Source: an uncultured Algibacter sp.
GTDB lineage: Bacteria > Bacteroidota > Bacteroidia > Flavobacteriales > Flavobacteriaceae
Assembly (NCBI RefSeq): GCF_947490405.1
Contig: NZ_CANLGU010000005.1
Coordinates: 246,740-310,739 of the forward strand
Reading direction: 5' to 3'
Length of the DNA stretch: 64,000 bases
Shown here: piece by piece, positions 28,102 to 50,961 of the stretch
How positions within the stretch are numbered: the stretch's first letter is position 1
Layout of the letters: every line of letters begins with the position of its first letter
Notes under the pieces: generated by a model
Seen by the model: the letters and a program-made list of their open reading frames with translations, nothing else
The model's database searches: none
Told to the model about the DNA's origin: nothing
Translations under genes and position numbers: made by a program

Positions 28102-28109
28102 CAAAAGTA
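28102..28109 (-). promoter_or_regulatory. -7 promoter element of pflB
   Basis: On the minus strand TACTTTTG matches TAnnTTTG exactly. It is identical to the element ahead of ccoS at 50954-50961 and lies at the same distance from an Fnr-type dyad. It rules out the longer PflB start. Confidence 0.75.
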
Positions 28110-28132
28110 AAAACAGAATAGATGATAAATTA

Positions 28133-28144
28133 TGACAATTGTCA
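28133..28144 (-). promoter_or_regulatory. Fnr-type operator upstream of pflB
   Basis: A perfect palindrome TGACAATTGTCA. Its centre is 29.5 bp upstream of the first base of the -7 element, about 41 bp from the expected transcription start, where class II Crp/Fnr activators bind. Confidence 0.75.
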
Positions 28145-28411
28145 GTAAACCACTGAAAATGAATATTTTTTCAACTTGGAATTAAATTATGCATAAACTA
28201 AAACATATGGTTCTAACGAAACCTTTTTTTTAAATTATTTTAATTTTTTGAGTTAAAAAAATGCTAATCTTATAATATAATAAATGTTATTTTTTTATTT
28301 TAATAAAACTTTTATTTAAAAAAGTAAAGTGTATTTTACGCTCTAAAGATTAATGCCATTTGAAAATCTTATTTATTTTCATACTTTGCATTGATATAAT
28401 CTATATTAACT

Positions 28412-30184
28412 ATGACAGAGATTACTAGACTTTTTGACTTCCCATATTATCAGCTAGAAAACCATCCATTGGAAGCTTCGCTTAACACAAAAGTTAATGG
28501 TGTTTGGATAAAAACATCTACTGAAAAATATTTATACAAAGCAAATGCAATAAGTAGAGCGTTACTAAAATTAGGTGTTAAAAAGAATGATAAAATTGCT
28601 GTTATCTCTTCTAATAATAGAACGGAATGGAATATTGTAGATATAGGCATCTTGCAAGTTGGTGCACAAAGTATACCTATTTACCCAACTATTAGTTCTG
28701 AAGATTATGAATATGTTTTAAACCATAGTGAAGCTATTTATTGTTTTGTTAGTTGCTCTGAGGTACTAGAGAAAATCAACAAGGTTAAAAAGAAAACAAA
28801 TCTTAAAGAAGTTTACTCATTTGATGAAATTAATGGATGTAAAAACTACGCTGAATTATTAAAATTAGGAGCAGATGATTCAAACCAAACAGAGGTTGAA
28901 ACTATTAAATCTAATGTAAAAGCTGAAGAGTTAGCAACAATAATTTACACTTCTGGAACCACAGGTAAACCCAAAGGCGTAATGTTGTCTCACAACAATA
29001 TAGTTTCAAATGTATTATCTGCTTCAAATAGATTCCCATTAAACGAAGAACATAGAGCATTGAGTTTTTTGCCCATATGTCATATTTTTGAGCGTGTTTT
29101 TACGTATTTATACCAATATAGAAGTATTGAAACCTATTATGCAGAAGCTATCGATAAAATAGGAGACAATGCAAAAGAAATCAAACCTCACACCATGACG
29201 GTTGTACCCAGACTTATTGAAAAAGTATACGATAAGATTATGGATAAAGGCACAGATTTAGATGGTTTAAAAAAGAAACTCTTCTTTTGGGCTGTAGAAT
29301 TAGGCTCGCATTTTAAACCCTATAAACAAAACGGGTTCTTATATGAGCTAAAGCTATCCATAGCGCGCAAGCTTATATTTAGTAAGTGGCAAGATGCGTT
29401 AGGAGGTGAAATTGTATTTATGGCTTCAGGGAGCGCAGCACTTCAATCTAGGTTAGGAAGAATTTTTGGTGCGGCTGGTATGCCTATTATGGAATGTTAT
29501 GGGTTAACAGAAACCTCACCGGGTATTTCTGCTAGCGATAGAAGAAATGGAGGTTGGAAAATTGGATATGTTGGTAGAGTTATAGATGATGTTGAAGTTA
29601 AAATTGCTGAAGATGGAGAAATACTTTGTAAAGGGCCTAATGTTATGATGGGCTACTATAAAGATATTGAAAAAACTACTGGTGTTATGACCGGAGAATA
29701 TTTTCATACTGGTGACAAAGGTGAAATTGACGAAGATGGTTTTTTAAAAATTACTGGGCGTAAAAAAGAGATGTTTAAAACCTCTGGTGGTAAATACATT
29801 ATCCCAACACTTCTTGAAAACCAATTAAAACAATCTCGTTTTATAGAACAAATAATAGTTATAGGAGAAGGTGAAAAAATGCCTGCTGCTTTAATTCAAC
29901 CTAATTTTGAATTTGTTCAAGAATGGATTGAACGGAAAAACCTTTCTGTCTTAAATACCTTTGAAGACATTGCAAACTCAGAAATTGTTCGAAAACGAAT
30001 TCAAAAAGAAGTTGACAAATGCAACAAAAAGTTTGGCAAATGGGAACAAATTAAAAAGTTTGAAATTACCCCTGAGGAGTGGTCTATTGATGCCGGCCAT
30101 CTTACACCTACAATGAAAATGAAAAGAGATGTGATTAAAAGCATGTATACCACCTTAATTGAAAGAATATATCGTCCATCTTAG
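28412..30184 (+). CDS. Long-chain acyl-CoA ligase
   Basis: A 590-residue AMP-forming ligase that activates fatty acids for beta-oxidation or lipid synthesis. The P-loop motif is YTSGTTGKPKGVMLSH, the acyl-adenylate motif is MECYGLTETSPGI, and the hinge and C-terminal motif are EYFHTGDKGEIDEDG and KITGRKKEMFKTSGGKYIIP. The family resembles eukaryotic-type and Mycobacterium FadD15-like ligases, which are common in Bacteroidetes. It precedes the beta-oxidation operon by about 1 kb and works in the same pathway, but it has its own transcription unit. Confidence 0.9.
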   Translation: MTEITRLFDFPYYQLENHPLEASLNTKVNGVWIKTSTEKYLYKANAISRALLKLGVKKNDKIAVISSNNRTEWNIVDIGILQVGAQSIPIYPTISSEDYEYVLNHSEAIYCFVSCSEVLEKINKVKKKTNLKEVYSFDEINGCKNYAELLKLGADDSNQTEVETIKSNVKAEELATIIYTSGTTGKPKGVMLSHNNIVSNVLSASNRFPLNEEHRALSFLPICHIFERVFTYLYQYRSIETYYAEAIDKIGDNAKEIKPHTMTVVPRLIEKVYDKIMDKGTDLDGLKKKLFFWAVELGSHFKPYKQNGFLYELKLSIARKLIFSKWQDALGGEIVFMASGSAALQSRLGRIFGAAGMPIMECYGLTETSPGISASDRRNGGWKIGYVGRVIDDVEVKIAEDGEILCKGPNVMMGYYKDIEKTTGVMTGEYFHTGDKGEIDEDGFLKITGRKKEMFKTSGGKYIIPTLLENQLKQSRFIEQIIVIGEGEKMPAALIQPNFEFVQEWIERKNLSVLNTFEDIANSEIVRKRIQKEVDKCNKKFGKWEQIKKFEITPEEWSIDAGHLTPTMKMKRDVIKSMYTTLIERIYRPS

Positions 30185-30293
30185 ATAACTTATTCTATTA
30201 ATAAGATTTCCATATTAATACTTCAACTCAATGACATTTAAGCAGTTAATCATTTTTTAGTATATTTAGACATAACCAATTAAAACTAATAAA

Positions 30294-30689
30294 ATGAAAA
30301 CTAAAAATTTCTTAGTATCAGGTATTGTCGGAGGTATTGTTGATTTCCTTTTAGGATGGCTCTTTTACGGTATCATTTTTAAAGATGTTTTTCCTCAACC
30401 AGAAGAAAGTAGTAGTACAATGTTATTTATCTTTCTTGGGTGCTTAACTTTTGGTCTATTTGTAGCTTATATTTACACAAAATGGGCACAAATAACCACT
30501 GCTTCAACTGGAGCAAAAGCTGGTGCGATTATAGGACTATTTATTGGCTTGTTTTACAACTTTTTTAATATGGCTATGATTCCAGGAGCAGAATTGCAAC
30601 TGGCTGCGCTAGATGTTGGCATATCGGTTATCATGACTTCAATTATTGGTGCTGTTATTGGTGCTTTAAATGGTAAATTAGGCGAATAA
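30294..30689 (+). CDS. Hypothetical four-helix membrane protein
   Basis: A 131-residue protein with four membrane helices and several small-residue faces (SGIVGGIVDFLLGWLFYG, GAKAGAIIGLFIGLFYNFF, IIGAVIGALNGKLGE). It resembles the small DUF1761-like membrane proteins but the assignment is weak. It ends 41 bases before a large palindrome that could be its terminator. Confidence 0.6.
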   Translation: MKTKNFLVSGIVGGIVDFLLGWLFYGIIFKDVFPQPEESSSTMLFIFLGCLTFGLFVAYIYTKWAQITTASTGAKAGAIIGLFIGLFYNFFNMAMIPGAELQLAALDVGISVIMTSIIGAVIGALNGKLGE

Positions 30690-30730
30690 GTAAATTATTT
30701 TACTTTATTTAAAAGCAGTAAATATAATTT

Positions 30731-30768
30731 AACAAAAAAATACTATGCATGCATAGTATTTTTTTGTT
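30731..30768. promoter_or_regulatory. Perfect 38-bp palindrome at MarR promoter
   Basis: The half-site AAC-A7-TACTATGCA (30731-30749) is repeated exactly in inverted orientation to 30768. It directly abuts the -7 element at 30768-30775. It can be read as a MarR-type operator covering the promoter, as a terminator for the gene before it (the stem ends in T7), or as both. Confidence 0.65.
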
Positions 30769-30775
30769 ATATTTG
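30768..30775 (+). promoter_or_regulatory. -7 promoter element of marR / beta-oxidation operon
   Basis: TATATTTG matches TAnnTTTG exactly and lies 17 bp before the MarR ATG. It shares its first base with the palindrome. Confidence 0.6.
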
Positions 30776-30792
30776 GAATCCAATCAACAAAC

Positions 30793-31239
30793 ATGAAAGA
30801 CAAAACCATTGATTATGTACTAAGAACCACTTGGTTATCGGTTCAGAAAATGTACAATGAAGAAGCTTCTAAATTTGGAAGTACCATGGCAACAGGCTTC
30901 ACACTATTAAGTATAGATCCAGAAAAAGGAACGCCTTCAACAGCCTTGGGACCAAAAATGGGAATGGAAGCAACAAGTTTATCAAGAATCTTAAAAACTA
31001 TGGAAGAAAAAGGTTTAATAACAAGAAAACCAAATCCAAAAGACGGAAGAGGGGTCATTATTTGTTTAACCGATTTTGGCATAGAAAAACGAGATTACTC
31101 AAGAGAAAAAGTTTTAATGTTCAATGAAGCAATAAGAAATAACGTTTCAGAAGAACAACTAAAAAACTTTTATGAAGTTGCAGAAGTTATTAACGACATG
31201 GTTTGCAATAAAAAAATATACAATCAATCTGATAGTTAA
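30793..31239 (+). CDS. MarR-family transcriptional regulator
   Basis: A 148-residue winged-helix protein. The DNA-binding part is visible in GMEATSLSRILKTMEEKGLI (recognition helix) and TRKPNPKDGRGVIICLTDFG (wing with the conserved Asp-x-Arg). It stands at the head of the beta-oxidation genes, 4 bp before the dehydrogenase/hydratase gene. It is therefore a likely repressor of the operon responding to fatty acids or acyl-CoA, and probably autoregulated through the palindrome in its promoter. Confidence 0.88.
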   Translation: MKDKTIDYVLRTTWLSVQKMYNEEASKFGSTMATGFTLLSIDPEKGTPSTALGPKMGMEATSLSRILKTMEEKGLITRKPNPKDGRGVIICLTDFGIEKRDYSREKVLMFNEAIRNNVSEEQLKNFYEVAEVINDMVCNKKIYNQSDS

Positions 31240-31243
31240 AAAA

Positions 31244-33649
31244 ATGAGCAAAAGACGAATTAAGAAAATAGCTATTATTGGTTCTGGAATTATGGGAAGT
31301 GGCATTGCTTGCCATTTTGCTAATATTGGTGTAGATGTCTTGCTTTTAGATATCGTTCCAAGGGAACTCAATGAAAAAGAAAAAGCTAAAGGTTTAACCT
31401 TAGAAGACAAAGTGGTTAAAAACCGATTAGTAAATGATGCTCTAAAAGCTTCATTAAAATCTAAACCCTCCCCTATTTATCATCAAAAATTTGCCAATAG
31501 AATTACTACTGGTAACTTAGAAGACGATATTGTTAAAGTTGCCAATGTAGATTGGATTATGGAAGTTGTAGTAGAACGTCTAGATATTAAACAACAAGTC
31601 TTTGAAAAACTCGAAAAACACAGAACTCCAGGAACACTTATAACGAGCAATACATCGGGGATTCCTATAAAATTTATGAGTGAAGGGCGTTCAGAAGATT
31701 TCCAAAAGCACTTCTGTGGCACACATTTTTTTAATCCTGCTAGATATCTTAAGCTATTCGAAATTATTCCCGGTCCAAAAACAGACCAGTCTATTTTAGA
31801 TTTTTTAAACGGATATGGGGAACAATTTCTTGGAAAGACATCAGTAATTGCCAAAGACACACCGGCTTTTATTGGCAACAGAATAGGAATCTTTAGTATC
31901 ATGAGTTTGTTCCATGCTGTTAAAGAGATGGATTTAACGGTTGAAGAAGTAGATAAACTTACCGGCCCTGTTATAGGCAGACCCAAATCGGCTACTTTTA
32001 GAACTGTAGATGTTGTTGGCTTAGATACGTTGGTACATGTTGCAAATGGTATCGCCGATAACTGTAAAGATGATGAACGTTTAGAGTTATTTAAGCTTCC
32101 AGGTTTCATAAGTACCATGGTTGAAAATAAATGGCTAGGTAGCAAAACAGGTCAAGGATTTTATAAAAAACAAGTCACAGATGGTAAAAAAGAGATTTTA
32201 GCATTAGACCTAAACACACTAGAATATAGGTCTTCTAAAAAAGCTAAATTTGCCACTTTAGAGCTTACTAAAACTGTCGATAATGTCATAGACCGCTTTG
32301 AGATACTTATCAATGGTAAAGACAAAGCAGGAGAATTTTACAGAAAAACGTTCGCGGCTTTATTTGCTTACGTATCGCATAGAATTCCAGAAATCTCTGA
32401 TGAGTTATACAAAATAGATGATGCTATGAAAGCTGGTTTTGGATGGGGTCATGGTCCTTTTCAAATCTGGGATGCTATTGGTATAAAAAAAGGTTTAGAA
32501 TTAATTAAAGCTGAAGGTTTACAAGCTGCAGATTGGGTTAATGATATGTTGTCTTCTAATAATGAATCATTCTACACCATAAAGGATGGTGCAACTTATT
32601 TTTACAATATTTCTTCAAAATCACAACAAAAAGTTCCAGGTCAAGATGCTTTCATCATACTAGATAATATTAGAAAGTCCAACGAGGTCTTTAAAAACTC
32701 TGGAGTAGTTATTGAGGATTTAGGAGATGGTATTTTAAACTGTGAATTTCAATCTAAAATGAACACTATTGGAGGTGATGTTCTAGCAGGTTTAAATAAA
32801 GCCGTAGATCTAGCTGAAAAAGATTTCGAAGGTTTGGTTATTGGTAATCAAGGGGCAAATTTCTCTGTAGGAGCTAATATAGGTATGATTTTCATGATGG
32901 CTGTAGAGCAAGAGTATCAGGAATTAAATGGCGCTATAAAATACTTTCAAGATACTATGATGCGTATGCGTTATTCGTCTATACCAACAATTTCTGCACC
33001 TCACGGCATGTCATTAGGTGGTGCATGTGAGTTGTCCATGCATGCCGATAAAGTTGTAGCTGCTGCCGAAACCTATATGGGATTAGTTGAATTTGGTGTT
33101 GGCGTTATTCCAGGAGGTGCAGGTTCAAAAGAAATGGCACTTCGTGCTTCTGATATGTTTAAAAAAGGAGATGTGGAATTGAATGTATTACAAGAATATT
33201 TCTTAACCATAGGAATGGCAAAAGTATCAACATCTGCTTATGAAGCTTTTGATTTAGGAGTTCTTCAAAAAGGAAAAGATATTGTTGTTGTTAATAAAGA
33301 CCGACAAATAGCTACAGCAAAAGCACATGCAAAATTATTGGCTGAATCAGGTTATACGCAACCTGTTAAACGAAAGGATGTAAAAGTTCTTGGTAAACAG
33401 GCACTTGGTATGTTCTTGGTAGGAACCGATGCTATGGAAGCTAGTAATTATATTAGTGAACACGACCATAAAATTGCAAATAAATTGGCTTATGTTATGG
33501 CTGGAGGAGATTTATCAGAACCAACTCTAGTCAGCGAGCAATACTTATTAGACTTAGAACGTGAAGCCTTTTTAAGCTTGTGTACAGAGCGTAAAACCTT
33601 AGAACGTATTCAGCATATGTTGAAAACTGGTAAACCTTTAAGAAACTAA
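31244..33649 (+). CDS. 3-hydroxyacyl-CoA dehydrogenase / enoyl-CoA hydratase fusion
   Basis: An 801-residue bifunctional beta-oxidation enzyme with the dehydrogenase first: the NAD site IAIIGSGIMGSGIACHFANI at the N-terminus, then HFFNPARYLKLFEIIPGP. The hydratase/crotonase domain lies in the C-terminal third, with the oxyanion-hole region ANFSVGANIGMIF and APHGMSLGGACELSMHADKV. This is the opposite domain order to E. coli FadB. ATG 31244 (MSKRRIKKIAI) is the true start; the longer frame from 31172 overlaps the regulator gene and adds no domain. Confidence 0.92.
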   Translation: MSKRRIKKIAIIGSGIMGSGIACHFANIGVDVLLLDIVPRELNEKEKAKGLTLEDKVVKNRLVNDALKASLKSKPSPIYHQKFANRITTGNLEDDIVKVANVDWIMEVVVERLDIKQQVFEKLEKHRTPGTLITSNTSGIPIKFMSEGRSEDFQKHFCGTHFFNPARYLKLFEIIPGPKTDQSILDFLNGYGEQFLGKTSVIAKDTPAFIGNRIGIFSIMSLFHAVKEMDLTVEEVDKLTGPVIGRPKSATFRTVDVVGLDTLVHVANGIADNCKDDERLELFKLPGFISTMVENKWLGSKTGQGFYKKQVTDGKKEILALDLNTLEYRSSKKAKFATLELTKTVDNVIDRFEILINGKDKAGEFYRKTFAALFAYVSHRIPEISDELYKIDDAMKAGFGWGHGPFQIWDAIGIKKGLELIKAEGLQAADWVNDMLSSNNESFYTIKDGATYFYNISSKSQQKVPGQDAFIILDNIRKSNEVFKNSGVVIEDLGDGILNCEFQSKMNTIGGDVLAGLNKAVDLAEKDFEGLVIGNQGANFSVGANIGMIFMMAVEQEYQELNGAIKYFQDTMMRMRYSSIPTISAPHGMSLGGACELSMHADKVVAAAETYMGLVEFGVGVIPGGAGSKEMALRASDMFKKGDVELNVLQEYFLTIGMAKVSTSAYEAFDLGVLQKGKDIVVVNKDRQIATAKAHAKLLAESGYTQPVKRKDVKVLGKQALGMFLVGTDAMEASNYISEHDHKIANKLAYVMAGGDLSEPTLVSEQYLLDLEREAFLSLCTERKTLERIQHMLKTGKPLRN

Positions 33650-33654
33650 AAAAA

Positions 33655-37561: not shown

Positions 37562-39208
37562 ATGAAAAATATTATTTACTTACTTCTAGTTATATTACTA
37601 ATACCAATTAATGTTTTAAATGCTCAAGGTCTATTATCTGAAAAAAACATATTTACAAGACAAGACAGTATTAGAGGAAGTATTACCCCTGAACGAGAAT
37701 GGTGGGATTTAACCTATTACCATTTAGACATAAAAGTAGATCCAGACAACAAATTTATTTCCGGAAAAAACACCATTCAATACAAGGTTTTAAAAGAAAA
37801 TTCTGCGATGCAGATTGATTTACAACCACCAATGAAGCTTTTAAAAGCCACACAAAATGGTAAGGAGTTAAAAATCAAACATGATGGAAATGCACATTTT
37901 ATCTCTTTAATGGATAGTCAAAATGTTGATGACATAAACGACATAATAGTATATTACGAAGGACACCCAAGAGAAGCGGTAAGAGCACCTTGGGATGGAG
38001 GTATTTCATGGAAAAAAGATAAAAACGAGAATCACTTCATAGCGTCTTCTTGTCAAGGCTTAGGTGCGAGTGTTTGGTGGCCTTGTAAGGATCACATGTA
38101 TGATGAAGTAGATAGCATGAAGATTAGTGTCAATGTACCTGATAAATTAACAAACGTCTCAAATGGTAGATTACAACTTGTAGAGCGTATAGGCGATACT
38201 AAAACGTACCATTGGGTTGTAAAAAACCCTATTAACAATTACGGAGTAAACATTAATATTGGAGACTATGTAAACTTTTCTGAGGTATATGATGGTATGG
38301 CTGGAAATCTTGATATGGATTACTATGTTTTGAGTTATAATCTTGAAAAAGCTAAAGAACAGTTTAAACAAGCGCCTATGATGATGAAAGCTTTTGAACA
38401 TTGGTTTGGTCAATACCCTTTTTATGCAGATAGTTTTAAACTTGTTGAAGTACCTTATTTAGGTATGGAACATCAAAGTTCTGTAACCTACGGAAATAAA
38501 TATATGAATGGTTATTTAGGTAATGATTTATCTGGTACCGGATGGGGCTTAAAATTTGATTTTATAATTATTCATGAAGCTGGCCATGAATGGTTTGCTA
38601 ATAATATTACCAATAAAGATGTTGCTGATATGTGGATTCACGAAGGATTTACGGCTTATTCTGAGAACTTATATTTGGATTATCATTTTGGAAAAGAAGC
38701 CTCGGCAGAATATGTTATAGGAACTCGTAAAAACATACAAAACGATAGACCATTAATTGGCTATTATAATGTTAATAAAGAGGGTTCTAGTGATATGTAC
38801 TATAAAGGTGCAAACATGCTTCATACACTAAGGCAACTCATTGAAGATGATGAAAAATGGCGAAAAATATTGCGTAAAATGAATGTTGAGTTTTATCATC
38901 AAACGGTAACATCGCAACAGATAGAAAACTTTTTAAGCAGAGAAACAGGTTATGACTTAACTGAGTTTTTTAATCAATATTTAAGAACAACCAAAGTACC
39001 TACATTAGAATACCAGATTAAAAAGAAAACCTTAAAGTATAGGTGGACAAATATTGTAGATGGTTTTGATATGCCTATTCAAATAAAAATAAATGATGAA
39101 GAAAAATGGATATTTCCAAAAGCTGAATGGAAAGAGGAATCTTTAGAATCGAAAATAAATACTTTTAAAACAGATATTGATTTTTATGTGGAGTCTAAAA
39201 AACTATAA
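37562..39208 (+). CDS. M1-family metallo-aminopeptidase, exported
   Basis: A 548-residue protein with a signal peptide ending LNAQ. The zinc site is HEAGHEWFANNI (near residue 337), with the third ligand Glu in MWIHEGFTAYSENLY. The exopeptidase substrate loop is LGMEHQSSVTYGNKY, in place of the GAMEN of classical members. The N-terminal beta domain precedes it (TYYHLDIKVDPDNKFISGKN). It should trim peptides in the periplasm or at the surface. The closest types are the Bacteroidetes M1 peptidases that lack the large C-terminal helical domain. Confidence 0.9.
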   Translation: MKNIIYLLLVILLIPINVLNAQGLLSEKNIFTRQDSIRGSITPEREWWDLTYYHLDIKVDPDNKFISGKNTIQYKVLKENSAMQIDLQPPMKLLKATQNGKELKIKHDGNAHFISLMDSQNVDDINDIIVYYEGHPREAVRAPWDGGISWKKDKNENHFIASSCQGLGASVWWPCKDHMYDEVDSMKISVNVPDKLTNVSNGRLQLVERIGDTKTYHWVVKNPINNYGVNINIGDYVNFSEVYDGMAGNLDMDYYVLSYNLEKAKEQFKQAPMMMKAFEHWFGQYPFYADSFKLVEVPYLGMEHQSSVTYGNKYMNGYLGNDLSGTGWGLKFDFIIIHEAGHEWFANNITNKDVADMWIHEGFTAYSENLYLDYHFGKEASAEYVIGTRKNIQNDRPLIGYYNVNKEGSSDMYYKGANMLHTLRQLIEDDEKWRKILRKMNVEFYHQTVTSQQIENFLSRETGYDLTEFFNQYLRTTKVPTLEYQIKKKTLKYRWTNIVDGFDMPIQIKINDEEKWIFPKAEWKEESLESKINTFKTDIDFYVESKKL

Positions 39209-40276: not shown

Positions 40277-40285
40277 AAATTAGTA

Positions 40286-41170
40286 TTAAGGATTAATAAA
40301 TACTCCTATTTCATCTAGACTAATCTTTGGAGTAGCACCTTCTTTTTGGGCAACCAAAGCCCCTACAGCGCAGGCAAAATCCAAAGCTTGTTGTGGGTTA
40401 GTTTTATCTATTAATTCACTAATTAACGAACCCAAAAAAGAATCGCCTGCTCCCACAGTATCTACTACCGACACCTTATAACCACTATTATAATAAAGAT
40501 TGTCATTATATAATAAGACAGCTCCATGCTCGCCTTTAGTTACACAAACATGTTTAGTATGGGTTTGTTCTGCAATAAACTTCAAATTCTGTTCAAGACC
40601 ATTATATTTAGAACCAAAATATTTACTTACTTCATAAAGTTCATCATCATTAAACTTTATAAAATCTGCTTTCTCCATGAGTGCGATTAAAATATCCTTT
40701 GAATAGTGAGGTGGTCGTAAATTCAAATCAAAAATTTTATATTTAGATAAATCAATAAGCTCAAAAAGCGTATATCTAGAAACCTCATCTCGAGTTATTA
40801 AACTACCAAAAACTAGCGCATCAGAATTCTTAACTTTTTCTACTATAGTATTAGTAAGCTCAATCTTATCCCACGCACTTGGGTGCGAGATTCTATAGGT
40901 AGCAGAACCTTTATTATTTAAAGTAACTTGAACTTCTCCAGTAGAAACACCTACTTTTTTTTGAACACCTTCAACACTTAAATTGTTTTCAATTAAATAA
41001 TCTAATAACTCAATTCCATTTTGGTCATTACCAATAGCACTTATCATAGTTACCTCATTATTAAAAGCATGTAAGCGTAATGCAACATTTAAGGGTGCCC
41101 CACCTATTTTCTTATTTCCATTTGAAAATACATCCCATAATACTTCACCAAAACAAACAATTTTAGACAT
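40286..41170 (-). CDS. PfkB-family sugar kinase, probably fructokinase
   Basis: A 294-residue ribokinase-fold kinase. The N-terminal FGEVLWDVFSNGNKKIGGAP and the C-terminal VDTVGAGDSFLGSLISELID (anion hole and catalytic Asp) are characteristic; GEVLWDxF and KIGGAPxNVA favour fructokinase. It is last in an operon with a sucrose-phosphate-synthase-like enzyme and a phosphatase/invertase fusion, 8 bp after the former. Phosphorylating fructose released by invertase would return it to glycolysis. Confidence 0.85.
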   Translation of the reverse strand: MSKIVCFGEVLWDVFSNGNKKIGGAPLNVALRLHAFNNEVTMISAIGNDQNGIELLDYLIENNLSVEGVQKKVGVSTGEVQVTLNNKGSATYRISHPSAWDKIELTNTIVEKVKNSDALVFGSLITRDEVSRYTLFELIDLSKYKIFDLNLRPPHYSKDILIALMEKADFIKFNDDELYEVSKYFGSKYNGLEQNLKFIAEQTHTKHVCVTKGEHGAVLLYNDNLYYNSGYKVSVVDTVGAGDSFLGSLISELIDKTNPQQALDFACAVGALVAQKEGATPKISLDEIGVFINP

Positions 41171-41178
41171 AATGTTAT

Positions 41179-42453
41179 TTAGAAAATGTTAGACTCCATA
41201 GTTTGTTGATTGATAGAATTTCTAAAAACTTGCAACATACGCTTAGCTATACCTGTCCAACCAAAATTTCGTCGTGCAAAACGAGCTCCTTCAACTGATA
41301 ATTCATTTCTCAAGTTTGGATACAATAAAGGCATAGCCATCATAGCACCAAACTCTACTGGTCTATGAGGATCTGCAAATAATGCTTGATTACCAAAATC
41401 AATCAAATCATTTAAACCACCATGTACTGTGACTACGCTAGGTGTGCCACAAGCCATAGCTTCAATAGCAACCATACCGAATGGCTCATATCTAGATGGC
41501 ATTACAAATATATTTGCCGAACGATATACATTTGCTAAATCTTCATCAGCAATATAATTCTTCCATTTAATCTTATCGTTAACACCTAACTCATTAGCTA
41601 AGGTTTTTAACTTTTTTATACCTTGCTTATCTTGTGGTGAGTCTCCTCCAACTGCAGCAACTAGTCTAGCCTCTGGACATAATTCAAAAACTGTTGGTAA
41701 AGATTTTATAAGTAAATCATAACCTTTATTATGTGCCATCCTACCTAGCGCTAAAATATCTGTAGGATGAATATCGTATTTAGCCCTTATTTTATCATTT
41801 TCTTTAGAAGGTACTGGATAAAATCTATTCTCATCTATTCCTGGAGGTATCATTGTACAATTTCTTGATAATACGTCATATTGTTGCGTTAATAAATCAA
41901 CTTGAGGCAAAGTGGTAGCTATAACATGATTACACATTTGATACACAAAATATTCTTTACGAATACGCTCTTTAAAACGGTAAATTTTCTCCATTTCCTT
42001 TTCATCCATATCACTCCCCATGGTGTGCTGTTTCCACCAGCCTAAAGAGTGTGGTGTATGTACATGAGAAACACCAAGCTCCTCTGCTATTTTTTGTCCA
42101 GCCCAACCTGCATCCCAATAATGAGAATATACTACATCATATTTCTTACGTTCTTTTTTTATGGCTGCTAAAGTATTGGTAACAAACTTTTTAAGATAAT
42201 CATGCATATCCTCTTTTCGTATAAATTCCTTACCGCCAAAAGGGATACGCCATACACTATAATTTTCATCAACTATATCATACTCTGGTTGATCTTCAAA
42301 TTGACGTGTCACTAAATCCACCTTTTTACCTAGTCTACTGAAACGCTCTGCTAACTCTAATACATAAACTACTTGTCCTCCTGTATCAGGCTTTCCTAAT
42401 TCTGCATTTGCTCCTACATATCCATGTAGGGATATCATCAATATTGATTTCAT
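41179..42453 (-). CDS. Sucrose-phosphate-synthase-type glycosyltransferase (GT4)
   Basis: A 424-residue GT-B glycosyltransferase. The N-terminal GKPDTGGQVVYVLELAERF and VWRIPFGG are the signature of sucrose-phosphate and sucrose synthases, as is HTPHSLGWWKQH. The nucleotide-sugar site with the EX7E motif is EPFGMVAIEAMACGTPSVVT. It lacks the extra N- and C-terminal domains of plant SPS, as the short bacterial enzymes do. The expected product is sucrose-6-phosphate from NDP-glucose and fructose-6-phosphate, which the next enzyme in the operon could dephosphorylate. Confidence 0.83.
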   Translation of the reverse strand: MKSILMISLHGYVGANAELGKPDTGGQVVYVLELAERFSRLGKKVDLVTRQFEDQPEYDIVDENYSVWRIPFGGKEFIRKEDMHDYLKKFVTNTLAAIKKERKKYDVVYSHYWDAGWAGQKIAEELGVSHVHTPHSLGWWKQHTMGSDMDEKEMEKIYRFKERIRKEYFVYQMCNHVIATTLPQVDLLTQQYDVLSRNCTMIPPGIDENRFYPVPSKENDKIRAKYDIHPTDILALGRMAHNKGYDLLIKSLPTVFELCPEARLVAAVGGDSPQDKQGIKKLKTLANELGVNDKIKWKNYIADEDLANVYRSANIFVMPSRYEPFGMVAIEAMACGTPSVVTVHGGLNDLIDFGNQALFADPHRPVEFGAMMAMPLLYPNLRNELSVEGARFARRNFGWTGIAKRMLQVFRNSINQQTMESNIF

Positions 42454-42471
42454 AGTTTAATATTTTAGTTA

Positions 42472-44556
42472 CTATCTGATTATTTTCAAATTATGACAAG
42501 CTGAAATGAACTGCGCTGCAGACCATGCTTGATAAGCTTTCCCCATTGGTTTACCTGTGGTTCCGTGTGCCCATTCGGTAAATTCCCATTCGTGATTAAT
42601 ACCTTCTTTATTAATTAGTGCCAGCTTATACAATTCTGAAATAGCGACATCTTTAAGACCTAGCTTATTGACAAATTTTACCCAAAAACCACCAACAAAT
42701 GGCCATATACCACCATTATGATAATGGTTAGGTAAATTCAACAGGTTAACTGTATAATAAGGTCTCCAATCTGGATCTCCTGGACTTACAACAGGATACA
42801 CATTAGCTACTGGATACGGATCATTAACACCAACACCTAACATAAATTTAAAGGTTTGATGTGCTTTTTCAGAATCAATTGTACCATGTAAAAAAGCCAG
42901 TACATTTCCGAGGATATCACATCGCCAACTAAAATCAAATGGAGTCGTTTGGGCAATCAAATAAGATGTATCACCTAAGGTAAACTGCTTTTCTGCAAAG
43001 GATACCGATTGAAACAATTGCTGTTGTGTAGATGGCCAAAAATTTTGAACAATTTCTTTTTTTATAACTTGAGACCAACGAATATATTCCCCTGCTTCTT
43101 CATGCTCTCCCAACATCTCTAACATACGTCCAAAACAAACATTAGAACGATACCAGAGAATTTCATCATAAAGAATGTTATAACTTCTTCCGAATAAATC
43201 TGTCCAATCTCCGGCTTCAGGAATTTCTAAAAGCGCATCATTATTACTATCGTGGGCTCCTAACCAACGCATCGTTTCTTTTATATCTGAAATATACTCC
43301 CTTAAAAAGGCTATATCCTTAGTTATATTAACATACTCGTAAAAGGCAATAACTACCCATATACCACTATCTATGGAACAAATACCACCTACTCCAGAGT
43401 AATCAGGAGTATTATCTTTAATACGTACATTTGATGGAATTTGACCATTTCGTGAAATATGCTCAAACAAGGTTACAAGCGTTTGTCTTGCACATTTATG
43501 AATATCTTCATCTTGATGAATTAATGGTAATGCTCCTATAACTGTTATTGCTCCATCTCGTGCCCATACACTATAATAGTTCTCATCTGTACCATGAGCA
43601 ACATTATCTTCAATTGAACATGCTGAAAATCCAAGCGGTGTTATGTTCTTTTTTAAGGCTATTATAGCCTTAATATAACCTTCTTTAATAAGTGCTATCT
43701 TTTCATCTTCATCTTCTGTTGCGATATTATCAATCTCTTTTTTAATAAAGAAATCATCACTATGATCTATATCACTTGTTACTTTAGCCTCCTCGGGTAA
43801 TACTCCGTAATAAATAAGCCCTTCAATAATACCATCACCCTTCTCTTGTTCAGAATGATAAACCTTTCTGTGCTTAGTGTATTGATAAAGTTCTTCATGT
43901 GCATTAGAAACGACGATTCCTGTTACATTTTTCAAATCAAACATAGCAGAATCGTTACCACTATCTCCAGCTACAATTACATTGGTAGTTTTGATATTTA
44001 ATTTATTAAGTAACCATTGTAACGCATTACCTTTATTGGCATACTTTGGAAGTATATCTAAAAATTTGTTTCCTGAATACACAACATTAACATCCATTTG
44101 GGCTTCAGAAAAATTCTGTTCTATGTCTGATATTAAATCTAAACTCGCATCATGAAAGAAATAACTTCTTTTATAGGCATGCTGAAATCTAGTAGGTTGT
44201 TCACTAATTGGATGATTAATGGACTGAATAATGTTTTCAACAGATTTTAAGTTCCAACCATCATCCAATACATCATTAAATTCTTTTACAATACTTTTAT
44301 TATTATAATCAAAAATATGTGTACCAACACCTGAAATTATATAGTCTGGCTTAGGAAGAATACCTTTATCAATTAAGTTGAGGACATCATCAATTAAACG
44401 CCCTGTATTATAGGTTAACAAAATGTTTTTAGGCTGGAACATTTCCCATACATTTTTAAAATTACTTTTATAGGTATGAAAGTCTATTAACGTATTATCT
44501 ATATCGAATGAAAGTAGACTTATATTATTTTGAATACCGACTTCACTTTTGCTCAT
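42472..44556 (-). CDS. Sucrose-phosphate phosphatase fused to invertase-like hydrolase
   Basis: A 694-residue fusion. Residues about 10-255 are a HAD-IIB phosphatase of the sucrose-phosphate type: SFDIDNTLIDF (motif I), LLTYNTGRLIDDV (II), DILPKYANKGNALQWLL (III) and VIVAGDSGNDSAMFDL (IV), followed by VVSNAHEELYQY, which is characteristic of SPP. After a linker, residues about 290-690 form an alpha/alpha-barrel hydrolase with SVWARDGAITVIGALPLI, GGICSIDSGIWVVIAFYEYV, EIPEAGDWTDLFGR and NHYHNGGIWPFVGGFW, resembling GH100 neutral invertases and amylo-glucosidases. It is the first gene of the three-gene operon. Confidence 0.82.
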   Translation of the reverse strand: MSKSEVGIQNNISLLSFDIDNTLIDFHTYKSNFKNVWEMFQPKNILLTYNTGRLIDDVLNLIDKGILPKPDYIISGVGTHIFDYNNKSIVKEFNDVLDDGWNLKSVENIIQSINHPISEQPTRFQHAYKRSYFFHDASLDLISDIEQNFSEAQMDVNVVYSGNKFLDILPKYANKGNALQWLLNKLNIKTTNVIVAGDSGNDSAMFDLKNVTGIVVSNAHEELYQYTKHRKVYHSEQEKGDGIIEGLIYYGVLPEEAKVTSDIDHSDDFFIKKEIDNIATEDEDEKIALIKEGYIKAIIALKKNITPLGFSACSIEDNVAHGTDENYYSVWARDGAITVIGALPLIHQDEDIHKCARQTLVTLFEHISRNGQIPSNVRIKDNTPDYSGVGGICSIDSGIWVVIAFYEYVNITKDIAFLREYISDIKETMRWLGAHDSNNDALLEIPEAGDWTDLFGRSYNILYDEILWYRSNVCFGRMLEMLGEHEEAGEYIRWSQVIKKEIVQNFWPSTQQQLFQSVSFAEKQFTLGDTSYLIAQTTPFDFSWRCDILGNVLAFLHGTIDSEKAHQTFKFMLGVGVNDPYPVANVYPVVSPGDPDWRPYYTVNLLNLPNHYHNGGIWPFVGGFWVKFVNKLGLKDVAISELYKLALINKEGINHEWEFTEWAHGTTGKPMGKAYQAWSAAQFISACHNLKIIR

Positions 44557-44761: not shown

Positions 44762-44795
44762 AAAAACGCCCTCTTTTCGATAAAGAGCACGTTTA
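44762..44795 (-). terminator. Terminator after MoxR-type gene
   Basis: AAACG-CC-CTCTTT and AAAGAG-CA-CGTTT pair around a short loop, with T-rich flanks on the minus strand, 22 bp beyond the ATPase stop. The rest of the 260-bp gap to the sucrose operon is AT-rich with no gene. Confidence 0.7.
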
Positions 44796-44816
44796 AAAAA
44801 ATTAATTTAAAAGCGT

Positions 44817-46283: not shown

Positions 46284-46359
46284 TTTATAGCTTTTGGTTG
46301 GTTGCCTTTGGCTATTAGCAAACCTTATTTAATAAGGCTAAAAGCTAACAGCAAGTTAA
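46284..46359. repeat. Intergenic palindromic element between ATPase and VWA genes
   Basis: Contains CCTTATTTAATAAGG (palindrome) flanked by short repeated AGC blocks (ATAGCTTTTGG, CTATTAGC, TAAAAGCTAACAGC). This is the kind of degenerate repeat often found between Flavobacteriaceae genes. It separates two genes that presumably share a transcript. Confidence 0.4.
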
Positions 46360-47487
46360 TTATCCTCTAATTCTTTTTTTTCTATTTGTTTCGTAATCTT
46401 CAAAAATCATTTCACCCAGACCTTTAAGTCCTGTATAAAATGCTTTACCTTGATTTGCATGGGTAAATTCTCTAACAAATTGCATTAAATAACTATCCTG
46501 AGCAATCATAAAGGTTGTTATTGGAATATGCAAGCGCCTCGCTTGTTGCGCCATAGCATAACATTTATTTACAATATACATATCCAAACCGTTACTATTC
46601 TTATAATATTCTCCATCTGGCAAACGCAAACAACTAGGTTTACCATCAGTAATCATAAAAATTTGTTTATTAGTATTTCGCTTTCTTCTAAGTAAATCCA
46701 TCGCTAATTGTAACCCCGCTACAGTATTAGTATGATAAGGGCCTACTTTTAAATACGGCAAATCTTTAATTTCTATTTGCCAAGCATCATTTCCAAAAAC
46801 TAAAATATCTAAAGTATCTTTCGGGTAACGTGTCGTTATTAATTCAGCTAAAGCCATGGCTACTTTTTTGGCGGGCGTTATTCGGTCTTCACCATATAGA
46901 ATCATACTATGGCTAATATCAATCATCAAAACGGTGCTCATTTGAGATTTGTGAAGTGCTTCTTCTACTACCAAATCATCTTCAGATAGCGTAAAATCTG
47001 AAATACCATGATTTATTTGAGCATTTTTTAAACTTTCGGTCATGGAAACTTTATCCAAAGCATCACCAAATTGGTAATTTCTATAATCGCCAGTATGCTC
47101 GTCCCCAATGCCAGAACTTTTACTTTTATGATTCCCTTGCCCGCTTCGTTTTATCTTACCAAAAATTTGATCTAAAGCTTGCTGACGAATGGCACGTTCG
47201 GTTTTTGCAGTAATTTCTAAGGTACCATTCCCATCAGGATCTATTTCTTCACGTAAATAACCTTTTTTCTTTAAATCTTCAATAAAATCTTCAATAGTAT
47301 ATTCGGGAGTTGTAAGTTTATATTCTTTATCTAACTCTCGTAACCAATCTATAGCTTCGTCAAAATCCCCAGAGGTATGAGTAATAAGTTCTTTAAAAAC
47401 TTCAAAAAGTGTATCAAAGGGTGATTTGTTAGGCGATTCGTATTTTTTAAAAACGAAACCTTTTCTGGGCATTTTATCTTTTTTCAT
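46360..47487 (-). CDS. VWA-domain protein, partner of MoxR ATPase
   Basis: A 375-residue protein. The C-terminal half is a von Willebrand A domain with MIDAS motif MIDISHSMILYGEDR (near residue 193), Thr in HTNTVAGLQLAM, and Asp in MITDGKPSC. The N-terminal half is helical and charged (SPFDTLFEVFKELITHTSGD). VWA/MoxR pairs work as metal-insertion or protein-maturation complexes. The Arg/Lys-rich C-terminus is RKKRIRG. Transcribed in the same direction as the ATPase gene, presumably as one unit. Confidence 0.85.
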   Translation of the reverse strand: MKKDKMPRKGFVFKKYESPNKSPFDTLFEVFKELITHTSGDFDEAIDWLRELDKEYKLTTPEYTIEDFIEDLKKKGYLREEIDPDGNGTLEITAKTERAIRQQALDQIFGKIKRSGQGNHKSKSSGIGDEHTGDYRNYQFGDALDKVSMTESLKNAQINHGISDFTLSEDDLVVEEALHKSQMSTVLMIDISHSMILYGEDRITPAKKVAMALAELITTRYPKDTLDILVFGNDAWQIEIKDLPYLKVGPYHTNTVAGLQLAMDLLRRKRNTNKQIFMITDGKPSCLRLPDGEYYKNSNGLDMYIVNKCYAMAQQARRLHIPITTFMIAQDSYLMQFVREFTHANQGKAFYTGLKGLGEMIFEDYETNRKKRIRG

Positions 47488-47576
47488 AGCACTATAAAAA
47501 TACTATTTTTATAAAGAATATTAAAAAGGTAACTATCAGATTTATCTATACTTTAACAGATATTCAGTTATAGATG

Positions 47577-48254
47577 TTATTCAATACGCTTCAGACCATT
47601 TATATCCTCTAGTTTAATATATTTTCCAACAGTTGAAATTAAACCATCCTTTTTAAATTGAGATAACACTCTTATAGCAGATTCTGTAGCGGTTCCAACA
47701 ATATTTGCATAATCTTCTCGAGAAAGAAGAATACTCATCGTACCATCAGGGTTTACACCAAAACTATCGTGAATATAAATTAAAGTTTCTGCTAAACGTT
47801 GACGCACTGATTTTTGCGCCATATTCACAATAACATCATCGGCTTCTTTTAAGTCATGAGCCATATCCTTGAGAACATCAAACGAGAATTTTGGGTTTTT
47901 TTGAAGATCTGCAATAATTTCACTTTTTGGAATAAAACAAACTTCCATATCGTTGAGTGCAGTTGCTTGTAAATTAGAACTTTCATCACTTATTAAAGAG
48001 CGTTGGCCCAGTAACTGGCCCTTTACAACCATTTTCACAATTTGATCTTTACCATTTTCACTTAATTTAGAAAGTTTACATATACCATCTTTCACACAAT
48101 AAACACCATGAAGCGTTTCACCTTCTTCAAAAATAATCTCTCCTTTTTTTATAGTTTTAGAAGTTTTACATCCAGAAATTCTTATTAACTCTTCTTTAGT
48201 CAATGACTTAAGTGAATTAAACTGCTTAATGATACACTGTTCACACTTTCCCAT
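47577..48254 (-). CDS. Crp/Fnr-family regulator, probable oxygen sensor
   Basis: A 225-residue protein with a cyclic-nucleotide-type sensor domain (KKGEIIFEEGETLHGVYCVK) and a C-terminal helix-turn-helix (LSREDYANIVGTATESAIRV, recognition helix with Glu and Arg as in FNR/CRP). Cysteines at 4, 7, 29 and 106 could hold an iron-sulfur cluster: C4-x2-C7 fits the N-terminal FNR pair and C106 (MEVCFIP) aligns with FNR Cys122, although the third Cys is displaced. It is divergent from the cbb3 oxidase genes, and dyads TGACANNTGTCA in three promoters are its likely sites. Confidence 0.85.
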   Translation of the reverse strand: MGKCEQCIIKQFNSLKSLTKEELIRISGCKTSKTIKKGEIIFEEGETLHGVYCVKDGICKLSKLSENGKDQIVKMVVKGQLLGQRSLISDESSNLQATALNDMEVCFIPKSEIIADLQKNPKFSFDVLKDMAHDLKEADDVIVNMAQKSVRQRLAETLIYIHDSFGVNPDGTMSILLSREDYANIVGTATESAIRVLSQFKKDGLISTVGKYIKLEDINGLKRIE

Positions 48255-48293
48255 TTGTAATAGTTTGATTGTCCAGTAAAAATATACAAAACA

Positions 48294-48305
48294 TGACAGA
48301 TATCA
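48294..48305 (+). promoter_or_regulatory. Fnr-type operator between fnr-like gene and ccoI
   Basis: TGACAGATATCA is an imperfect dyad of the TGACANNTGTCA type. Its centre lies 29.5 bp upstream of GACTTTTG (48329-48336), a -7-like element with one mismatch to TACTTTTG, so the geometry equals that at pflB and ccoS. Being in the divergent region, it could also act on the regulator gene. Confidence 0.6.
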
Positions 48306-48367
48306 TATTTAAAACACAGTTGTTTTATGACTTTTGTCTCAGGTATAAATGAGCAAATAAAAAAATT

Positions 48368-50770
48368 ATGGAACATAAAACATGTTTCCATTGTGGATTA
48401 GATTCTACAACTTCCGAAATTATTTATGATGACAAATCATTTTGCTGTAATGGTTGTAAGACTGTTTACGAGATATTTTCTGCAAACGATTTAACGTGTT
48501 ACTACGATTTACAAAACGCTCCAGGTACTACACCAAAAGAGATTGAAGGCAAATATAATTTTTTAGACAACCCTAAAATAGTTGAACGTTTATTGGAATT
48601 TAATGACGAAAAAACGCAAATCGTTACTTTATATATTCCGCATATACATTGCAGTTCTTGTATTTGGATTCTTGAGAATTTGAATAAACTGCATCCTTCT
48701 GTAAGTTCATCAATTGTAAATTTTGGAAAGAAAACAGTTCGGGTAAATTACAATACGGAACATTTTTCTTTGAAAGGTTTAGTAAAACTTCTAAGCAGCA
48801 TTGGCTATGAGCCTTTTATAAGTTTAGATGATTATAGCGTTGGGAAAAAGAATGTAGACCGCTCACTAATTTACAAACTAGGTGTTGCTAGTTTTGCTTT
48901 TGGTAACATTATGTTTTTGTCGTTTCCTGAGTATTTTCAGGTGAGTGGATTTTGGATTGAAAAATACGCACCCGTTTTTAGATGGTTGATGTTTGTGTTT
49001 TCTTTACCTGTTGTTTTTTACTCGGCTCAAGATTATTTTATTTCAGCTTATAAAGGAATACGCTCTAAAATTTTAAATATTGATGTGCCTATTGCTTTGG
49101 GTGCAGCAGTTTTATTTATAAGAAGTACCGCAGAAATTGTTTTTAATATTGGCACAGGTTTTTTTGATAGTTTATCTGGACTCATTTTCTTTTTATTACT
49201 CGGGAAGTTTTTTCAGCAGAAAACCTATACGTTTTTATCTTTTGAGCGCGATTATAAATCGTATTTCCCGATTGGAATCACTAAAATTTTATCTGATAAT
49301 TCTGAAACGTCTATTCAGGTTTATGACATTGAAAAAGGCGACAGACTTTTAATTAGAAATGAAGAATTGATTCCTGTAGATTGTATTTTGATTAAAGGGA
49401 AAGCTCGCATTGATTACAGTTTTGTAACTGGCGAATCTGAAGCAGTTTCGAAACAATCTGGCGATAAATTATTTGCTGGAGGAAAACAGTTGAATGGTAG
49501 TATTGAAGTTGATGCTTTAAAAACGGTTGAGCAAAGTTACTTGACCCAACTTTGGAGTAACGATGTATTTAGCAAGAATAAAGAGGATGGTTTCACTACA
49601 TTAACTAATGCCATTAGTAAACGTTTTACCATTGCTGTTTTAAGTATTGCTATAGTAGCCACAAGCTATTGGTTATTTTCAGATGCTTCTAAAGCATTAA
49701 ATGTGTTTACATCGGTATTAATAATTGCTTGTCCTTGCGCCATTGCTTTGGCTGCTCCTTTTACGTTTGGCAACTTGTTACGCATTTTTGGGAAGCTTAA
49801 ATTTTACGCAAAAAACGCTTCGGTTATTGAACAATTAGCAGCTGTTGATACTATCATTTTTGATAAAACAGGAACCATTACTGCTAATAAAGAAACGTCA
49901 ATTGAATATAATGGATTAGAACTTTCAGAAGATGAAGAAGCGTTATTGAAAAGTACATTGCGAAATTCTAATCATCCGTTAAGTAGGTCGTTATACTCGC
50001 TTTTGAATGATAATGATATTGTGACTTTGGATACTTATGAAGAACATGTTGGAAAAGGTATTGAAGCACAACATAATCAAGATTCTATAAAAATTGGTTC
50101 TGCTCCTTTTGTGGGTTATACTTCTGAAACAGCTACGTTAAATACGGCGGTACATGTGAGTACTAATAACAAATACAAAGGGTCGTTTACGTTTTACAAT
50201 AAGTATAGAAAAGGATTATCTAAGTTATTTAATAAACTGAAAAAGGAGTATGATTTAGTGATTCTTTCTGGCGATAATGCTGGAGAAAAAGAAAATTTAA
50301 CAAAACTGCTTCCTGCTAAAACGAAATTATTTTTTAACCAAAAACCTGAGGATAAACTAGAGTATATAAAACATCATCAAAATTCGGGTGCTAAAGTATT
50401 AATGATTGGAGATGGTTTAAATGATGCTGGTGCTTTGGCGCAGAGTAATGTTGGGATTGCAATTTCTGAAAATGTAAATGTGTTTTCTCCAGCTTGTGAC
50501 GCTATTTTGGATGCTACTAAATTTAATCAACTATATCATTTTATTAAGGCTTCAAAATCGGCTATAAAAATTATAAAATGGAGTTTTTTACTGTCGCTTA
50601 TTTACAACTGTATCGGGCTTTATTTTGCGGTTACAGGACAATTAGCACCTGTAATTGCTGCTATTTTAATGCCTTTAAGTTCGATTAGTATTGTGGTTTT
50701 TACAACCATTTGTACGAATATAATAGCCCCACCTAGCCTCTCCATAGGGGAGGAATACTCAGACGAATGA
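48368..50770 (+). CDS. ccoI: Copper-translocating P-type ATPase for cbb3 oxidase assembly
   Basis: An 800-residue P1B-type ATPase. The N-terminal Cys-rich module (CFHCGLDSTTSE, CCNGCKTVYEIF) precedes an HMA domain with HCSSCIWILENL. The translocation motif is IACPCAIALAAP, phosphorylation is at DKTGTIT, and the hinge is GDGLNDAGALAQ. This CcoI/FixI type exports copper for assembly of cbb3 oxidase. The last 14 or so residues (PPSLSIGEEYSDE) are encoded by the first arm of an inverted repeat, not by conserved ATPase sequence. It is divergent from the Fnr-like gene. Confidence 0.93.
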   Translation: MEHKTCFHCGLDSTTSEIIYDDKSFCCNGCKTVYEIFSANDLTCYYDLQNAPGTTPKEIEGKYNFLDNPKIVERLLEFNDEKTQIVTLYIPHIHCSSCIWILENLNKLHPSVSSSIVNFGKKTVRVNYNTEHFSLKGLVKLLSSIGYEPFISLDDYSVGKKNVDRSLIYKLGVASFAFGNIMFLSFPEYFQVSGFWIEKYAPVFRWLMFVFSLPVVFYSAQDYFISAYKGIRSKILNIDVPIALGAAVLFIRSTAEIVFNIGTGFFDSLSGLIFFLLLGKFFQQKTYTFLSFERDYKSYFPIGITKILSDNSETSIQVYDIEKGDRLLIRNEELIPVDCILIKGKARIDYSFVTGESEAVSKQSGDKLFAGGKQLNGSIEVDALKTVEQSYLTQLWSNDVFSKNKEDGFTTLTNAISKRFTIAVLSIAIVATSYWLFSDASKALNVFTSVLIIACPCAIALAAPFTFGNLLRIFGKLKFYAKNASVIEQLAAVDTIIFDKTGTITANKETSIEYNGLELSEDEEALLKSTLRNSNHPLSRSLYSLLNDNDIVTLDTYEEHVGKGIEAQHNQDSIKIGSAPFVGYTSETATLNTAVHVSTNNKYKGSFTFYNKYRKGLSKLFNKLKKEYDLVILSGDNAGEKENLTKLLPAKTKLFFNQKPEDKLEYIKHHQNSGAKVLMIGDGLNDAGALAQSNVGIAISENVNVFSPACDAILDATKFNQLYHFIKASKSAIKIIKWSFLLSLIYNCIGLYFAVTGQLAPVIAAILMPLSSISIVVFTTICTNIIAPPSLSIGEEYSDE

Positions 50771-50845
50771 AACTCTTGAATAGAAATATATGATGAGTGA
50801 GCATGCAACAGTTCCCTTCCCTTTGGGGAGGGTTAGGGTGGGGCT
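50725..50845. repeat. Inverted repeat spanning the ccoI stop codon
   Basis: The left arm AGCCCCACCTAGCCTCTCC (50725-50743) and the right arm GGAGGGTTAGGGTGGGGCT (50827-50845) are imperfect inverse complements; small stems CTCCATAGGGGAG and CCCTTTGGGGAGG lie inside. The left arm is translated as the end of CcoI. Confidence 0.7.
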
Positions 50846-50846
50846 T

Positions 50847-50891
50847 TACGTTAGGGATAGCAGCGAATAGCCCGACCCTTGTGGTAACGCC
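50847..50891 (+). repeat. Dispersed repeat A, copy 3 (short form)
   Basis: TACGTTAGGGATAGCAGCG is joined directly to AATAGCCCGACCC and GTAACGCC; the middle portion present in the other copies is deleted. It follows the inverted repeat after ccoI without a gap. Confidence 0.65.
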
Positions 50892-50918
50892 AAAAAAATG
50901 AAAATAAACGATAGAACA

Positions 50919-50930
50919 TGACAAATGTCA
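50919..50930 (+). promoter_or_regulatory. Fnr-type operator upstream of cbb3 operon
   Basis: The dyad TGACAAATGTCA has its centre 29.5 bp upstream of the -7 element TACTTTTG (50954-50961), exactly as at pflB. It lies about 41 bp before the expected start of transcription. Confidence 0.75.
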
Positions 50931-50953
50931 TCTTTTAAAAAGAACTATGAAAG

Positions 50954-50961
50954 TACTTTTG
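50954..50961 (+). promoter_or_regulatory. -7 promoter element of ccoS-ccoNO operon
   Basis: TACTTTTG matches TAnnTTTG exactly, 21 bp before the ccoS ATG. It shows that the oxidase genes have a promoter of their own, independent of ccoI. Confidence 0.7.

Follow-up and report, generated by a model that had tools for sequence, protein, structure and literature searches.

The question raised by this locus is whether pyruvate formate-lyase (PFL) and the cbb3 oxidase are placed under a single low-oxygen activator by their promoter sequences. The locus lies on contig NZ_CANLGU010000005.1 of an uncultured Algibacter sp., and the window denotes the whole stretch of 64,000 nucleotides that was analysed. 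An initial annotation had proposed that three promoters of the window share an Fnr-type dyad at identical spacing from a TAnnTTTG promoter box, and that the Fnr-like protein encoded at 47577-48254 acts on them. On the present evidence, the window dyads are predicted to be class II binding sites, centred at −41.5, of this Fnr-like and putatively oxygen-responsive activator, with a probability that we put at roughly 0.8. Other Bacteroidota show the same arrangement, and there it often precedes low-oxygen genes. The three dyads and their boxes were found at the places originally given, and the distance from dyad centre to first box base is 29.5 bp (a 23-bp spacer) at all three promoters. The features concerned are as follows.

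24997..25797, minus strand: pflA, PFL-activating enzyme, downstream of pflB (TIGR02493 over cut-off)
25828..28053, minus strand: pflB, pyruvate formate-lyase (TIGR01255 over cut-off), its ATG 48 nt past the box
28102..28109, minus strand: −7 box of pflB, CAAAAGTA on the plus strand and TACTTTTG on the minus strand, 23 bp from the dyad
28133..28144, minus strand: dyad TGACAATTGTCA, predicted activator site of pflB, centre at predicted −41.5
47577..48254, minus strand: Fnr-like regulator (PF00027 and PF13545), with invariant C4, C7, C53 and C106 and the helix TATESAIR
48294..48305, plus strand: dyad TGACAGATATCA, between the divergent regulator and ccoI genes
48329..48336, plus strand: weak −7 box GACTTTTG of ccoI, 23 bp from the dyad
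48368..50770, plus strand: heavy-metal P-type ATPase (PF12156, PF00403, PF00122; TIGR01494 over cut-off), named ccoI from its domains and gene place, the NCBIfam copper models scoring below their own cut-offs
50919..50930, plus strand: dyad TGACAAATGTCA, predicted activator site of ccoS-ccoNO
50954..50961, plus strand: −7 box TACTTTTG of ccoS-ccoNO
50982..51176, plus strand: ccoS (TIGR00847 over cut-off)
51179..53374, plus strand: fused ccoNO (NF011053 over cut-off)
53578..54480, plus strand: ccoP (domain matches)
54572..55996, plus strand: ccoG (TIGR02745 over cut-off)
56373..56819, plus strand: ccoH (FixH; domain matches)

The intergenic gap between regulator and ccoI was compared among the Algibacter genome and seven related genomes. 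A dyad was present at that place in all eight, reading TGAC...ATCA in seven and TGATTAATATCA in the remaining one (L107), and a relaxed box 23 bp from the dyad was matched in five.

The dyad at a fixed 23-bp spacing from the box was enriched; the bare dyad was not, and it was rejected as a signal because it occurs at background frequency in window and genome. The pattern TGACN5TCA-N21-25-TAnnTTTG yielded five matches in the Algibacter genome, every one at 23 bp, and its reversed control yielded one. With the loosest dyad, TGAN6TCA, and spacers of 8-38 bp, the total of 74 matches was little above the 58 of the reversed control; 10 of the 74 had a 23-bp spacer against 2.4 expected (p = 1.3e-4). 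The exact palindrome TGACAnnTGTCA occupies five places in this genome, with TAnnTTTG at 23 bp in three of them and at 35 bp in one, and the fifth has no TAnnTTTG within 8-38 bp. The composite of dyad and box at 23 bp, unlike the bare dyad, therefore exceeds chance. Site-linked genes of this genome outside the window are hemN, pta and a gene for a thioredoxin-like protein, together with moeA at a gap of 24.

Comparison across the family and class sharpened this spacing. The composite TGACAnnTGTCA-N8-38-TAnnTTTG was matched in 116 of 249 family genomes, with 211 matches versus 16 for the reversed control. Among the 150 family matches listed (of 211), the spacer was exactly 23 bp in 122 (p = 9e-153 versus a flat spread) and 22-24 bp in 132, and a palindrome with swapped halves gave 11 matches in the family, two of them at 23 bp. 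Seventy of 396 class genomes contained a match, and 33 of the 80 class matches outside the own family had the 23-bp spacer (p = 4e-28). A scan of one genome per species at the exact spacing returned at least 117 stretches, of which 80, some from species already in the family sample, were examined by title; 78 were titled as Bacteroidota taxa and one of the other two as Acetobacterium. This points to phylum specificity, which is only suggestive because the scan order is not known. The genome-wide scan that had been proposed as a check was run, and own genome, family and class each showed a peak at one spacing; the sites often precede low-oxygen genes. In three loci (L125, L136 and L174), a single dyad has a −7 box at 23 bp to either side, so that one palindrome could drive two divergent promoters.

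The position −41.5 is the classical class II activator position. The TAnnTTTG box of Flavobacterium psychrophilum is located at −12 to −5 according to the available part of PMC9723704, which places the dyad centre at a predicted −41.5, and the class II fit suggested at the outset holds with this published box position. In 117 sites with a gap of 23, the predicted +1 was A or G in 74%, the base preceding TGACA was A in 60% and T in 6%, and a TCAT-N-TTTT element was found at −38 to −30. Of 126 sites, 118 were followed by an open reading frame (ORF) of at least 60 codons that started with ATG no further than 350 nt away, at a median distance of 25 nt, and the ORF start lay no more than 100 nt away in 102. 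The 117/126 sites of this promoter analysis were mostly fetched for their 23-bp spacing, and the spacing in them is therefore no evidence. Two near-identical promoters about 1 kb apart in the Algibacter genome (G000:C1:37800-37854 and 38893-38947; L021 and L022) have a spacer of 35, their dyads lying 12 bp further upstream, about one helical turn beyond the class II position, and they precede protein-coding genes.

The 118 downstream ORFs were grouped by similarity and named from representatives, the own copies of hemN, ccoS, pflB and pta being confirmed by NCBIfam. The largest groups were hemN (15), ccoS (13), pflB (10) and universal stress proteins (usp; 6), followed by metallo-beta-lactamase-rhodanese proteins (5), cytochrome c (4), a cysteine-rich small protein without name (4), fnr itself, phosphate acetyltransferase (pta) and glyoxalase-like proteins (3 each), and ccoNO and moeA (2 each). 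Singles include korA-like, hemA, resB, feoA, ferritin-like and flavodoxin-like proteins, and the remaining ORFs are nameless or without obvious oxygen tie. The 81 sites in the 80 named stretches gave ccoS nine times, the S30EA/hibernation-factor type five times, hemN four times, usp three times and pflB twice. In the available part of PMC9723704, cbb3 oxidase and heme enzymes rise in F. psychrophilum under oxygen limitation, as predicted from a low-oxygen code of this kind. A protein of 606 amino acids (L190 and relatives) also recurs after the site, in 3 of the 118 ORFs and 2 of the 81 named sites, and has no Pfam or NCBIfam match.

The regulator itself comprises 225 amino acids, with a cyclic nucleotide (cNMP)-binding beta-roll and a Crp helix-turn-helix (HTH) domain (PF00027, PF13545), and its residues 4-222 align with solved Aliivibrio-type FNR entries at E values of 1.9e-22 to 1.7e-21. 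All 240 compared sequences, own included, have the cysteines C4, C7, C53 and C106, as do the 26 copies that were parsed among 28 taken from genomes (8 close and 20 more distant). The two unparsed loci were L285 and L288. The invariance of the helix in the parsed loci is partly a matter of selection, since the parsing script picked loci by helix pattern; in an alignment of 24 rows made without such selection, T190, E191, S192, I194 and R195 are invariant. C4, C7 and C106 coincide with FNR cysteines in the structure-match alignment, and C53, which lies in the beta-roll, may substitute for the third; an iron–sulphur (Fe-S) cluster on C4, C7, C53 and C106 is predicted. A structure prediction (predicted local distance difference test, pLDDT, 77; predicted template modelling score, pTM, 0.45) was not used as evidence.

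Five proteins of the Algibacter genome match PF13545, and the helix TATESAIR occurs only in the 47577-48254 protein. The same helix is common, or nearly so, to the regulators of other site-bearing genomes, and the choice of this protein as predicted activator in the initial annotation agrees with its being the only own PF13545 protein of that kind. The dyad begins about 39 bp before the regulator start codon, and auto-regulation in the own genome is a possibility. No class II site for the regulator itself was found among the own copy and seven close orthologues, whereas 4 of 18 parsed more distant orthologues have one.

Sites and regulators also co-occur. Twenty-one genomes with matches had no Fnr-type match at E 1e-30, and 19 of these carry a protein of about 350 amino acids combining receiver, cNMP-like and Crp HTH domains, hereafter receiver-Crp. 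Of the 215 genomes with either regulator, 114 had composite matches, versus 2 of 34 with neither (Fisher p = 5e-8), a genome being scored positive at any spacer of 8-38. By regulator content, the 249 genomes gave 41/87 for Fnr only, 26/51 for receiver-Crp only, 47/77 for both and 2/34 for neither. When genomes under about 2.5 Mb were dropped, matches stood at 111/204 versus 1/14 (p = 5e-4), one 2.5-Mb genome having been put into the small class in error; genome size accounts for part, not all, of the association. Ten genomes whose best Fnr-type match lay at E 1e-30 to 1e-37 were not counted as Fnr-bearing, and all ten carry receiver-Crp. Absences of a regulator may be overcounted, because in some genomes the searches for Fnr, receiver-Crp and L110 (a further FNR-like protein considered below) did not score every first-look candidate.

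Both receiver-Crp copies scanned contain PF00072, PF00027 and PF13545. The receiver-Crp helix, IATESLIR, and TATESAIR are two letters apart. In 120 of 120 nearest relatives that helix is unchanged, as are receiver residues E8, D9 and D52, and no cysteine was found among them at the Fnr positions. A kinase with PAS, HisKA and HATPase domains is encoded beside receiver-Crp in four of four neighbours scanned. An acidic-pocket receiver and an adjoining kinase gene class receiver-Crp as a two-component response regulator. In the loci examined, usp-like genes with relaxed sites come after receiver-Crp. Three loci (L232, L233 and L239) show the order cco operon, kinase, receiver-Crp, usp and fnr, the kinase of L233 being preceded by two additional genes; the Algibacter genome has fnr at the equivalent place without kinase, receiver-Crp and usp, and a search of this genome found no receiver-Crp, nor any PF13545 protein of that size. 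In L235, L236 and L238, about four to six genes in a row adjoin receiver-Crp, some with a site of their own, and the starts of these genes resemble universal stress proteins by eye.

From the observed sequences, spacing statistics, gene content, conserved residues and co-occurrence, we infer binding, oxygen sensing, the cluster ligands and the direction of regulation as follows. When oxygen is low, the four cysteines of the regulator would carry an Fe-S cluster and the protein would dimerise; the dimer would read TGACA-NN-TGTCA through the TATESAIR helix, contact RNA polymerase from −41.5, and switch on the assembly of cbb3 oxidase, heme synthesis through hemN and mixed-acid fermentation through pflBA and pta. 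The receiver-Crp of relatives, whose gene adjoins that of a PAS histidine kinase, likely recognises this box too through its near-identical helix, so that the input sensor would be exchanged or doubled with box, position and targets kept constant, and there are probably two alternative sensors for one box. On balance we lean, if only somewhat, towards a single Bacteroidota low-oxygen code, TGACA-NN-TGTCA at −41.5 of a TAnnTTTG promoter, which would be served interchangeably by an Fnr with rearranged cysteines and a receiver-Crp driven by a PAS kinase, lineages keeping either or both without rewiring of the targets.

Several observations weigh against the window dyads being sites of this activator. 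In the window, the dyad occurs within two mismatches at 24 places against 29 expected, and in the 3.69-Mb genome bare TGACN4GTCA occurs at 14 places against 15 for the reversed pattern. The −7 box GACTTTTG of ccoI matches TAnnTTTG poorly, and 3 of the 10 relaxed 23-bp sites in the own genome have no plausible gene start nearby. The family genomes are related and their counts are not independent; outside the family only the spacing peak is strong, because the reversed control there reached 31 matches against 80. Of the 81 named sites, 34 precede genes outside the comparison set and six have no near ORF. No perfect match was found in 101 of the 215 regulator-bearing genomes, and two genomes (G155 and G185) have matches and neither regulator at the cut-offs used. 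As for the proteins, the best solved match of the regulator is 2gau, a Crp/Fnr-family structure not labelled FNR; NF008365 (Fnr), the best of 13 NCBIfam models, scores 96.8 bits against a cut-off of 228; N13, not a cysteine, stands at the third ligand position of FNR; and some receiver-Crp copies have other helices, such as TAKETAIR (L204) and MASETLIR (L207). The background frequency of the bare dyad would also fit the view that AT-rich intergenic DNA supplies palindromes near TAnnTTTG and that three were merely noticed together. That explanation is contradicted by the spacing peak, which is one base wide both in the family and beyond it, and by the few matches of the swapped palindrome, and its probability is practically negligible.

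Two further explanations accept the sites and change the reader or its signal. The box might be read not by the window regulator and instead by L110, the other FNR-like own protein near moeA (G000:C3:164626-165372), which lies about 6 kb from the moeA site at gap 24, has a cysteine-rich N-terminus and carries, by eye, a cysteine in the segment matching C106; as a cysteine-rich paralogue it could at least share targets, a further point against the main reading. Its helix, TEEQVIR, differs from the one common to both regulator types of site-bearing genomes. L110 was found in 46 of the 249 genomes (E 1e-60), and matches occurred in 25 of 46 genomes with it versus 91 of 203 without (p = 0.26); L110 was accordingly rejected as a general box reader, and it is very unlikely to be the reader here. 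A C-x2-C-x4-C motif lies close to its start. Alternatively, the activator may answer another signal, such as redox state, nitric oxide or carbon supply, with the low-oxygen theme secondary. The oxygen response is a prediction, one of the four cysteines is off its FNR position, and CRP/FNR homologues of Flavobacteriales and Saprospiraceae in bioreactor genomes, perhaps other proteins than those considered here, are predicted carbon-availability sensors in the available part of PMC8510549. With cbb3 oxidase, oxygen-independent hemN and PFL in the regulon and four invariant cysteines in the protein, this alternative is unlikely, and the regulator here points to oxygen rather than carbon.

Because the genome scan proposed as its test came out for it, the Fnr-regulon model is well supported, and so is its description as a Bacteroidota version of the Fnr regulon that would be known in kind and differ in box flank, −7 element and cysteine set, and above all in its probable pair of alternative sensors. 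The FNR, Anr, FnrL and FixK regulons of Proteobacteria use TTGAT-N4-ATCAA or TTGAC-N4-GTCAA as class II sites at −41.5. The sites described here share with them the TGAC-N4-GTCA core, the half-site spacing, the −41.5 position and, as targets, cbb3 oxidase, hemN, usp and fermentation genes. They differ in the outer base, which is mostly A and seldom T, and in the Bacteroidota TAnnTTTG box; the third cysteine of the regulator is moved, and receiver-Crp probably also acts on the box. The FNR consensus TTGAT-N4-ATCAA is not what the three sites of the window show, nor the pattern found enriched: both resemble TGACA-NN-TGTCA and have an outer A, no scan aimed at TTGAT-N4-ATCAA having been made. Bacillus-type Fnr uses three cysteines and aspartate as ligands. 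A non-standard ligand set is likewise predicted here, built however from four invariant cysteines, two of them N-terminal, with C53 in the beta-roll and C106 at an FNR cysteine position. In FixLJ-FixK and DosRS, a PAS-type sensor kinase feeds a regulon for low oxygen, with cbb3 oxidase or universal stress proteins among its members. The present system resembles them in having a PAS-type kinase beside the regulator of a predicted low-oxygen regulon, and differs in that receiver and Crp DNA-binding domains are joined in one protein.

The available part of PMC1274295 gives the HcpR consensus as TTGACnnnnGTCAA and the FNR box as TTGATnnnnATCAA. For HcpR2 of Bacteroides and others it gives GTAACnnnnGTTAC, and in most Bacteroides this regulator is predicted to control hcp genes only. 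HcpR2 is similarly a Crp/Fnr-family regulator with a 4-bp-spaced dyad; both the site (GTAACnnnnGTTAC) and the downstream genes (an hcp regulon) differ from those found here, which places the present regulator outside HcpR2 as far as that source describes it. In the open-access literature, subscription journals and regulon databases being outside the scope, no description of this box was found in the text available. Bacteroidota promoters are of their own type, and we judge activator regulons in the phylum to be poorly charted. With a regulatory code readable from sequence, responses to low oxygen could be predicted for many genomes of marine, soil and host-associated bacteria. The arrangement suggests that activators keep their −41.5 geometry even on a −10 element of quite another kind, and an exchange of sensors on a constant box, if true, would offer a clear natural example of input rewired and output conserved.

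Two minor observations concern other parts of the window. A G/C-rich, inverted-looking element at 50732-50850 contains GGGAGGGTTAGGGTGGGG at 50826, its single match in the window. It is located between the ccoS dyad and ccoI and apparently makes up the last part of the ccoI frame; an Rfam search of the ccoI-ccoS gap gave no match. The region 40286-44556 is perhaps a sucrose cluster, since it encodes a glycosyltransferase, a PfkB kinase and a protein that joins a sucrose-phosphate-phosphatase domain to a part resembling a glycosidase.

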